Positions 24,057 to 26,330 of a stretch of 64,000 nt of DNA are shown here, one piece after another. This DNA comes from Claveliimonas bilis (GTDB taxonomy: Bacteria > Bacillota > Clostridia > Lachnospirales > Lachnospiraceae), in contig NZ_AP024845.1 in the NCBI RefSeq assembly GCF_020892095.1, positions 62,001-126,000 of the forward strand, in the 5' to 3' direction. The notes under the pieces were generated by a model that saw only the letters and a list, made by a program, of their open reading frames with translations, did not search any database and was not told the DNA's origin. Numbering within the stretch: the stretch's first letter is position 1; the number at the start of each line of letters is the position of its first letter. Position numbers and translations under genes: made by a program.

Positions 24057-24080
24057 TAAAATAAAAAATTTTTTATTTTA
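24057..24080. promoter_or_regulatory. Perfect 24-bp AT-only palindrome upstream of gntR (probable operator)
   Basis: Left arm TAAAATAAAAAA and right arm TTTTTTATTTTA form a perfect 24-bp palindrome. It includes the stop codon of the selenoprotein gene and abuts the gntR promoter. Confidence 0.5.
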
Positions 24081-24395
24081 AATATTGTTTTCTTCTTCTG
24101 CCGGCCGGATCCCTTCCACCTGAAAACAGGTAATCCACGGATACTCCACATAATTGACAGCGATCTCTTCCGACAACTCTACGCCCTGATCCGGATAGTA
24201 TACTTTTCCTATCTCGCTTGTATCTGCCCTGTATCCTTTTTCCGCCATAGCTTCTTCATCCTCGTTGGTAAAACTTACCACTATCTCCTTATACGGAGGC
24301 GCACATCAGCTGGTAAATTCCTCCACACTTAAGACTACGTCATTCCACCCAAACTTCAGCATATATTTTTTTGCATTATCGTTTAATTTTACCAT
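24078..24395 (-). CDS. CC/Se-motif small selenoprotein (HesB-like), with in-frame UGA as Sec
   Basis: 105-codon gene read through a TGA at 24306-24308. From ATG 24395 (GGAAAGAGGTG upstream) it gives MVKLNDNAKKYMLKFGWNDV, then FTS-U30-C31-APPYKEI, then about 70 further residues to a TAA. The T-S-U-C-A-P-P context matches the family annotated as CC/Se motif or HesB-like (seleno)proteins, whose other members carry Cys-Cys here. Reading frame, start, ribosome site and family motif agree on both sides of the TGA, so this is not a broken gene. Members are related to A-type iron-sulfur carriers; function is unproven. It is divergent from an IscU-like scaffold. No sel genes are in the window. Confidence 0.85.
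24275..24316 (-). promoter_or_regulatory. Candidate SECIS stem-loop around the UGA codon
   Basis: In the mRNA UUACCA (24311-24316) pairs with UGGUAA (24275-24280), enclosing the UGA and an apical CUCC-GUAUAA-GGAG hairpin (24285-24298) whose loop starts with G, as bacterial SECIS loops do. The UGA-to-loop-G distance is 11 nt, shorter than the usual bacterial model, so this is tentative. Confidence 0.45.
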
Positions 24396-24549
24396 ATTCT
24401 TGACACCTCTTTCCTAAATAGAAGTTTACCATATCATCTCTCCTACTACAAACCTGTTTTTCTGCAAATCCTGATTGACGAATCCTGCAAATTATGCGAA
24501 AATAAATTTAAGTATGGGTTAAAGACATAACAAACCCTACAGAAAAATC

Positions 24550-24597: not shown

Positions 24598-25290
24598 ATG
24601 ATTTATTCACATGAAGTAGAAATGATGTGTCCGGTAGCTCAAGGTGCAAATCACGGACCAGCTCCAATCCCGGAAGAAGCAAAATGGGTACAGGCAAAAG
24701 AAATTAAAGATATTTCCGGTCTGACACACGGTGTAGGCTGGTGTGCTCCGCAGCAGGGAACCTGCAAACTGACTTTAAATGTCAAAGACGGAATCATTCA
24801 GGAGGCACTTGTAGAGACAATCGGATGTTCCGGTATGACTCACTCTGCAGCTATGGCTTCTGAAATCCTTCCTGGAAAAACAATTCTGGAAGCGCTGAAT
24901 ACAGACCTGGTCTGCGACGCTATCAATACAGCAATGAGAGAACTTTTCCTCCAGATCGTATACGGAAGAACTCAGAGCGCATTCTCTGAGGACGGGCTTC
25001 CGATCGGTGCAGGACTTGAAGACCTTGGAAAAGGACTTCGCTCTCAGGTTGGTACTATGTACGGTACGCTGGCAAAAGGACCTCGTTACCTCGAAATGGC
25101 TGAAGGTTATGTCACAGGAATCGCACTGGATGAACATGATGAGATCATCGGATATCAGTTCGTAAGCCTTGGAAAGTTCACAGACTTCATCAAAGCCGGT
25201 GACACACCAAACGATGCATGGGAGAAAGCAAAAGGTCAGTACGGCCGTGTTGCTGATGCTGTTAAAATCATCGATCCGCGCAAAGAGTAA
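24598..25290 (+). CDS. IscU/NifU-like iron-sulfur scaffold family protein
   Basis: 230 residues. Cysteines at 11, 49 and 56 (GVGWCAPQQGTCKL), 77 (VETIGCSGMTHSAAM) and 106 (NTDLVCDAIN) follow the spacing seen in the IscU-like scaffold group found in anaerobes; the GCSGMTHSAAM segment is the clearest mark. AAAGGAG precedes the start. Codon choice is strongly biased here and in the next gene, suggesting high expression. The GGGtGRT gene follows after 29 bp. That it builds or carries Fe-S clusters is inferred from the family; no cysteine desulfurase is nearby. Confidence 0.8.
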   Translation: MIYSHEVEMMCPVAQGANHGPAPIPEEAKWVQAKEIKDISGLTHGVGWCAPQQGTCKLTLNVKDGIIQEALVETIGCSGMTHSAAMASEILPGKTILEALNTDLVCDAINTAMRELFLQIVYGRTQSAFSEDGLPIGAGLEDLGKGLRSQVGTMYGTLAKGPRYLEMAEGYVTGIALDEHDEIIGYQFVSLGKFTDFIKAGDTPNDAWEKAKGQYGRVADAVKIIDPRKE

Positions 25291-25319: not shown

Positions 25320-26330
25320 ATGGCTTTATTTGAATCATATGAAAGAAGAATAGATAAAATCAATGAAGTATTAAACAGCTACGGCATTGCTTCATTAGAA
25401 GAAGCTGAAAAAATCACAAAGGACGCCGGACTGGACGTATACAATCAGATCAAGGGAATCCAGCCTATCTGTTTTGAAAATGCCTGCTGGGCATATATTA
25501 CAGGTGCTGCAATCGCAATCAAAAAGGGATGTTCAAGAGCTGCTGACGCTGCTGCTGCAATCGGAGAAGGTCTTCAGGCTTTCTGTATTCCGGGTTCTGT
25601 AGCTGATCAGCGTAAAGTTGGACTTGGACATGGAAATCTCGGAAAAATGCTTCTGGAAGAAGAAACAGACTGTTTCGCTTTCCTTGCAGGACATGAGTCT
25701 TTTGCCGCTGCTGAAGGTGCAATCGGTATTGCTGAAAAAGCAAACAAAGTTCGTAAGAAACCTCTTCGCGTTATCCTGAACGGACTTGGAAAAGACGCTG
25801 CAAAGATCATTTCCAGAATCAACGGATTTACTTATGTACAGACAGAATATGATTACTATACAGGAGAACTGAAAGAAGTTCAGAGAATCGCTTATTCTGA
25901 CGGACTTCGCTCCAAAGTAAACTGCTATGGTGCAAACGACGTACGTGAAGGTGTTGCTATCATGTGGAAGGAAGGCGTTGATGTCTCCATCACAGGTAAC
26001 TCCACAAACCCGACACGTTTCCAGCATCCGGTTGCAGGAACATACAAAAAAGAATGTGTAGAAGCAGGAAAGAAATACTTCTCTGTTGCTTCCGGCGGTG
26101 GTACAGGACGTACTCTTCACCCGGACAACATGGCTGCAGGACCGGCTTCCTACGGTATGACAGATACACTGGGACGTATGCATTCTGATGCACAGTTTGC
26201 AGGATCCTCTTCTGTTCCGGCTCACGTTGAAATGATGGGTCTGATCGGAGCAGGAAACAACCCGATGGTTGGTATGACAGTTGCTGTTGCCGTTTCTATT
26301 GAAGAAGCTGCAAAGGCAGGAAAATTCTAA
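25320..26330 (+). CDS. GGGtGRT family protein, function unknown
   Basis: 336 residues, soluble, named for its invariant glycine-rich motif, here SVASGGGTGRTLHP (GGGTGRT at about 258-264). Other conserved-looking parts are NACWAYITGAAIAIKKGC (about 44-61), GHGNLGKMLLEEETDC and AGHESFAAAEGAIG. I know no proven activity for the family; it is commonly found beside the IscU-like protein seen here. AGGAGG precedes the start. A strong terminator closes the two-gene unit. Confidence 0.85.
   Translation: MALFESYERRIDKINEVLNSYGIASLEEAEKITKDAGLDVYNQIKGIQPICFENACWAYITGAAIAIKKGCSRAADAAAAIGEGLQAFCIPGSVADQRKVGLGHGNLGKMLLEEETDCFAFLAGHESFAAAEGAIGIAEKANKVRKKPLRVILNGLGKDAAKIISRINGFTYVQTEYDYYTGELKEVQRIAYSDGLRSKVNCYGANDVREGVAIMWKEGVDVSITGNSTNPTRFQHPVAGTYKKECVEAGKKYFSVASGGGTGRTLHPDNMAAGPASYGMTDTLGRMHSDAQFAGSSSVPAHVEMMGLIGAGNNPMVGMTVAVAVSIEEAAKAGKF

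Follow-up and report, generated by a model that had tools for sequence, protein, structure and literature searches.

Selenocysteine (Sec) in a small HesB-type protein has a described precedent in TIGR01911, the HesB-like (seleno)protein (PMC13188914). The sections of this 2026 review that hold Table 1 cover 119 selenoprotein families, among them TIGR01911 with the motif UxGP and NF041239 (Moor_selen_rel, the CC/Se motif family) with the motif CxxU; proteins with a differing Sec motif are there counted as a subfamily of their own. The review also gives limits for the bacterial hairpin, covering its loop, loop G, stem and spacing. Two other described groups lie close by, the IscA/HesB family protein NF038090 (IscA_HesB_Se), which is also of the HesB type, and the A-type Fe-S carriers IscA and SufA (PF01521).

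Here we describe a gene in a 64,000-nucleotide stretch of Claveliimonas bilis DNA, the whole of which is called the window below. We hold, with a probability of roughly 95%, that frame 24395-24078 on the minus strand constitutes a functional selenoprotein gene in which a TGA is read as Sec, and we infer that this insertion takes place in the cell. The protein and its homologues, called TSUCAPP after the residues around Sec, apparently form a new, Sec-only subfamily of HesB-fold selenoproteins.

Results

The frame and its homologues

The frame opens at ATG 24395 and runs through 29 codons, a TGA and 75 further codons to a TAA, giving a predicted protein of 105 residues with T-S-U-C-A-P-P at its centre and Sec as residue 30 (Table 1). 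On re-reading, three statements of the first-pass annotation held: that the frame from ATG 24395 to TAA 24078 is crossed by a single TGA, at codon 30; that a ribosome site precedes the ATG; and that a gene caller would see the last 67 residues only, which is what the mechanical ORF list gives for the TGA-split frame (a 67-aa GTG ORF, 24281-24078).

Table 1 Coordinates of the features at the locus, in window positions
Feature	Position	Strand	Basis
Very probable selenoprotein CDS, 105 residues plus TAA, Sec30	24078..24395	-	frame, homologue conservation and selection
In-frame TGA, very probably read as Sec, then a Cys codon (U-C pair)	24306..24308	-	kept in 23/23 distinct homologues
Stop codon TAA of the CDS	24080-24078	-	direct reading
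Shine-Dalgarno-like GAGGTG, 8 nt before ATG 24395	24404..24409	-	direct reading
Family-wide SECIS-like helix, alignment columns 26-46	24263..24283	-	covariation, covariance model
Possible lower hairpin CUCC-N6-GGAG	24285..24298	-	invariant in ten sequences; explainable by the protein sequence

By itself this frame proves little, as such frames are not rare by chance. Counting frames of no more than 400 codons that have an ATG, 25 or more codons ahead of the stop and 65 or more behind it, the window held 25 crossed by TGA, 6 by TAG and 26 by TAA, and outside ORFs of at least 200 aa the numbers were 5, 0 and 2, respectively. A Cys codon adjoined the TGA in only one of the 25 TGA-crossed frames, the one described here. 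Of the five TGA-crossed frames not inside long ORFs, two besides this one were translated, and neither looked protein-like by eye. That the frame is real is therefore argued from its conservation among homologues and not from the frame alone. A promoter and terminator scan at the locus gave nothing usable above its own shuffles, and a single sub-threshold microRNA match in Rfam was taken as chance.

A search of 61 genomes, including the own genome, found the gene in nine, all of the own genus, from which ten genomes had been searched. In a profile search of 397 genomes of the same family, 17 matched: the own genome, a second genome of the species (G329), 12 with TSUCAPP and three with only a sister form, CNTU. 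The 391 genomes of the class searched added L050, a full-length match from outside the family, together with two weak matches, and 398 genomes of the phylum gave, besides the own gene, three weak partial matches only. The gene also occurs in one named record, that of an uncultured Clostridia MAG (L010), and no relative was seen in the viral contigs, plasmids or phages searched. Our set of 23 distinct homologues comprises the own gene, eight from the same genus, 12 from other genomes of the family, L050 (from another family of the class) and L010; the copy in G329, which has TGA at codon 30, is not counted among them. Four partial matches (L051, L053, L054 and L055; E 0.003-0.008, no TGA, inside longer frames) were dropped as chance, and L052 was dropped because, though it has the TGA, NF041239 is its better match. 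L046, a second copy in G356, diverges from the family beyond about residue 69 and looks as though it were degenerating; it was kept in the 27-row alignment, left out of the selection count and replaced by L050 in the 27-sequence check of hairpin limits. The MAG copy (L010, 6001-6633) extends beyond the usual end as a Cys-containing sequence up to the contig end, either a fusion or an assembly effect.

Codon 30 was TGA and codon 31 Cys in all 23 distinct homologues. Homologues ending at or before codon 30, which the first-pass annotation had named as evidence against the gene, were not seen, the frame being open past this codon in 23/23. For the five closest homologues the median dN/dS was 0.17 before the TGA, where 5/10 pairs could be used and the others were saturated, and 0.12 after it (9/10 pairs usable); over all pairs, many of them saturated at synonymous sites, the medians were 0.26 (124/253 usable) and 0.20 (179/253 usable). 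Judged by these sequence comparisons, purifying selection is acting on both sides of the codon-30 TGA.

These results bear on the reading that an ordinary gene was broken by a nonsense TGA and is becoming a pseudogene. Such a case exists in the same window, where a TGA at 20845-20843 on the minus strand interrupts the reading frame of an S9 peptidase (21214-19259); the copy in G329 has no stop at this place, on which ground the S9 TGA looks like a strain-level nonsense change. The TGA of TSUCAPP, in contrast, stands at codon 30 in every distinct homologue as well as in G329, with purifying selection downstream of it and a covarying hairpin behind it, and we give the nonsense reading virtually no credence. 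A neighbouring S9 paralogue was seen to stop a few residues sooner in G329 than in the window.

No Cys form of TSUCAPP or CNTU was found in the genomes searched, though the profiles carry Cys at the Sec column, and the classical argument from Sec/Cys alignment is consequently unavailable within the TSUCAPP subfamily. CNTU itself is a sister group of four loci (L043, L044, L045 and L047) with the motif CNT-Sec-G/S-G. TGA stands at the matching site in 4/4, followed by the same kind of hairpin, and the fourth copy, in G417, lies beside a TSUCAPP gene. Three of the four match the NF041239 model (E 5.7e-6 to 0.025), below its 40-bit cut-off, and the group is likewise without a family name.

A SECIS-like hairpin after the TGA

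Over the 57 bases counted from the TGA, columns 26-33 form a helix with columns 39-46. Across 27 sequences 91.7% of its cells were paired, against 27.8-61.1% for slid versions of the helix, and two-sided changes occurred in 5/8 pairs. None of 500 shuffles, in which relatedness is ignored, reached the covariation score, the share of cells paired or the number of two-sided cells; two measures were less striking, as 11 shuffles were as high in two-sided pairs and 38 in pair types. RNAalifold found the helix core unaided in ten sequences. A covariance model built from 22 other sequences gave 74 bits for the site in the window, where the next match had 12.9, and 36, 35, 29.2 and 21.6 bits for the four held-out CNTU loci; neither 12 NF041239 loci nor the stretches of the own selD and prdB yielded a site, indicating that the helix model is specific to TSUCAPP and CNTU. 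A hairpin whose loop, loop G, stem and spacing fall within the limits set out in PMC13188914 was present at the same place in 27/27.

The window sequence forms six pairs at 24280-24266, 31 nt past the TGA, that enclose a GUU loop. Alone, this hairpin is weak (-3.4 kcal/mol, equalled at 9% of 916 plus-strand TGAs of the window), and 7% of codon shuffles of the window sequence were as stable as the hairpin itself, the corresponding figures for L012-L015 being 28-41%. The hairpin by itself reached -5 kcal/mol or lower in 19/27 sequences; the minimum free energy (MFE) was -7.5 or lower in all 27 stretches of 57 nt, and the MFE fold kept the helix in 23/27 and was without it in 4/27. Because single hairpins are weak, the case for a SECIS rests on recurrence and covariation. 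The first-pass annotation had placed the element in 24270-24320, an interval that takes in most of the helix but misses the last 7 of its 21 bases (24283-24263).

The hairpin also has to be set against readings that dispense with Sec, namely two ORFs (one for a peptide of 29 residues, the other for a protein of 67 residues begun at GTG 24281) or readthrough of the TGA with Trp or another standard residue. The GTG ORF does appear in the ORF list, with GGAG just before GTG 24281, and its GTG is shared by the four closest homologues; at this place in the 27 sequences, however, GTG was found in only 5, TTG in 3 and no start codon in 19. Trp elsewhere in the family is coded by TGG, and both readings leave the hairpin, the Cys after the TGA and the co-occurrence with SelB unexplained, so that we regard them as very improbable. 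In the selenoprotein reading, which we prefer, translation would start at ATG 24395, SelB with Sec-tRNA would recognize the hairpin (24283-24263) that closely follows the UGA, Sec would be inserted at residue 30 and termination would occur at TAA 24078. The product would have 105 residues and a HesB fold, with Sec30-Cys31 as an adjacent selenol-thiol pair.

Sec machinery and co-occurrence

A complete Sec system had been expected elsewhere in the genome from the first reading of the gene, and selC, SelA, SelB and SelD were all found. The tRNA-Sec (selC) scored 63.8 bits (gathering threshold 47), with the anticodon tca according to ARAGORN, and SelB (364.1 bits), SelA (616.1), SelD (398.0) and PrdB (407.7) all exceeded curated cut-offs. 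SelD and PrdB each have an in-frame TGA of their own, PrdB being of the Sec type. The genes selD, selA and selB share a region with prdA, prdB and prdC (own genome 893000-912000, L009, and L001), and selC lies some kilobases from selD, selA and selB in this D-proline reductase (prd) region. The selD/prd region presumably also contains a proline racemase-like gene and a YedE-like gene.

SelB exceeded its cut-off in 23/25 carriers of TSUCAPP or CNTU, compared with 9/52 non-carriers (Fisher p 2.4e-10, kinship ignored); within the same family, for genera other than the own one, the numbers were 13/15 and 3/27 (p 1.9e-6, kinship ignored). The 52 non-carriers are those of the 61-genome search and not the full set known, which means that the two groups were drawn from different samples. 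G002, the only non-carrier of the same genus, is also without SelB and SelA. Two carriers were without SelA and SelB: G264 (82% complete), with a TSUCAPP gene that has the TGA (L031), and G137 (96% complete, 5% contamination), with a CNTU gene that has the TGA (L043). Incomplete assembly, contamination and leftover genes are candidate readings for these two genomes.

Predicted fold and family

No model of NCBIfam (June 2026 release) or of Pfam recognized the window protein, P0001. AlphaFold2, run on ten aligned sequences, modelled it with pLDDT 91.6, and the first eight PDB chains returned by Foldseek for this model were of the IscA/SufA type (E 1.3e-4 to 0.018; TM 0.42-0.62; three chains at E 0.001 or better); the best match in the viral structure library was an Fe-S assembly protein (E 2.5e-3). 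On this model, the TSUCAPP protein is predicted to have the IscA/SufA (HesB) fold. A PDB sequence search with P0001 gave partial matches to the DUF4465 chains 9fct (E 1.5e-4) and 9qpm (3.5e-3), and 9fct was also matched in part by the profile (E 0.003); neither is among the best 50 of 249 Foldseek rows, and both were treated as chance.

A profile-profile comparison of TSUCAPP with NF041239 (24/29 sequences) scored 48.7 (probability 95.5%, E 1.5e-8) and aligned the Sec-Cys columns of the two profiles, whereas 60 column shuffles reached at most 17.2 and a reversed profile 20.6. By profile, NF041239 is a detectable distant relative of TSUCAPP. The 29 NF041239 loci read (L084, a partial match, and matches without a locus left aside) comprised 17 Sec and 12 Cys-Cys forms; Sec-Cys occurred in 9 of the 17 Sec forms, the residue after Sec differing from Cys in the rest, and Cys came next in 12/12 Cys forms. 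The first-pass annotation had likened the gene to CC/Se motif (HesB-like) proteins that alternate Cys-Cys with Sec-Cys. This agrees with NF041239 as a mixed family and a distant relative, but P0001 falls below the model of that family and has no Cys form of its own.

A closer bond, in which TSUCAPP belongs to NF041239 proper and the model is simply too narrow, could be read from the profile score, which exceeds those of the shuffles, its E value and the aligned Sec-Cys columns, and from the sub-cut-off matches of three of the four CNTU sequences. Against it, P0001 itself gave no match to the NF041239 model (40-bit cut-off) and only one of ten family members reached E 0.038. In a tree of 50 sequences, for which the program warned of long branches and from which L050 was left out, 24 NF041239 sequences were separated from 26 TSUCAPP and CNTU rows (split 100/99), and no Cys form was found on the TSUCAPP side; we therefore think it unlikely that TSUCAPP is part of NF041239. 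In the same tree CNTU and TSUCAPP each formed a single group, the latter less well supported (98/95 and 83/83, respectively). The best NF041239 match in the own genome reached 12 bits, at a place other than 24078-24395.

Direct profile comparison of TSUCAPP with E. coli IscA found nothing, and the HesB link accordingly rests on the predicted fold and on NF041239. NF041239 matched E. coli IscA weakly (score 21.6; shuffles up to 18.9), its predicted model (pLDDT 93.1) had IscA/SufA-type chains as eight of the best nine PDB matches (E 3.5e-3 to 0.058), and the best match of a PDB sequence search with it was 2qgo, a putative Fe-S biosynthesis protein (E 0.9). One NF041239 member weakly touched TIGR01911 (E 0.095) and NF038090 (E 0.06). 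None of ten TSUCAPP members matched TIGR01911 up to E 10, although the model was part of the library searched, as its match to E. coli IscA shows, and neither these ten members nor L050 matched NF038090.

The Sec-Cys site and its neighbourhood

Across 22 rows, Sec30 and Cys31 were the only invariant Sec/Cys residues, and in the AlphaFold2 model they lie in a loop between two strands. Divergently upstream of the gene, on the plus strand, are a NifU-like gene (24598-25290) and a GGGtGRT gene (25320-26330), the former a weak assignment (20.9 bits to NifU_N, cut-off 22). A NifU-like homologue occurs within about 6 kb of the gene in four genomes of the same genus; none was found in the regions read for the remaining four genes of the genus, nor near the genes of other genera (about 1.5 kb read on each side), and gene neighbours are not conserved between genera. 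The proximity within the genus may be mere synteny.

With a predicted fold matching IscA and SufA, and with NifU-like and GGGtGRT genes adjoining, the NifU-like one again nearby in those four genomes, the protein might be an A-type Fe-S carrier of the classical kind, in which Sec would serve as a ligand of the cluster. The C-terminal Cys-x-Cys of such carriers is absent, however, leaving Sec30 and Cys31 alone invariant; the NifU-like gene does not accompany the other four same-genus genes or those of other genera within the stretches read; and Pfam Fe-S_biosyn matched nothing anywhere in the own genome. We consider a carrier of this kind a rather improbable reading. Because only Sec30 and Cys31 are invariant and the Cys-x-Cys is missing, we lean instead towards a site of a broad class, Sec-Cys redox or soft-metal/chalcogen binding, which is the least certain part of our interpretation of the selenoprotein.

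Discussion

We judge TSUCAPP to be new because no UCAPP entry was recognized among the 119 families in Table 1, in the sections of PMC13188914 that contain it, and because no report of the subfamily was found in the open-access literature searched. Plain ORF reading truncates the protein and NCBIfam and Pfam are blind to it, so TSUCAPP selenoproteins are probably lost or cut short in the annotation of the genomes that carry them; since the sets searched held no Cys form, methods that depend on Sec/Cys pairs may miss them as well. As a small and clean system, the subfamily lends itself to asking why certain proteins retain Sec and never turn to Cys. More speculatively, and with the odds against it, TSUCAPP and CNTU could be a HesB-fold clade in which Sec is not replaceable by Cys, with a chemistry beyond that of thiols and a function undescribed so far. 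If this were true, the chemistry for which Sec is irreplaceable might, for example, consist in handling selenium or persulfide or in capturing a soft metal, carried out in TSUCAPP by an adjacent Sec-Cys pair.

Among known systems, NF041239 is like TSUCAPP in length, predicted fold, the columns of the Sec/Cys pair and distant homology; it differs in its motifs (GGGUC, GCC and variants, against TSUCAPP here) and in having Cys forms, none of which were found here, and TSUCAPP lies below its cut-off and on the other side of the tree. TIGR01911 shares the occurrence of Sec in a small HesB-type protein, but its motif, UxGP in the Table 1 part of PMC13188914, contrasts with UCAPP, and its model does not match TSUCAPP; NF038090 is alike in HesB type, again without a TSUCAPP match. 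IscA and SufA are alike in predicted fold, whereas TSUCAPP has Sec, is without a Pfam match and lacks the C-terminal Cys-x-Cys that IscA carries as CGCG.
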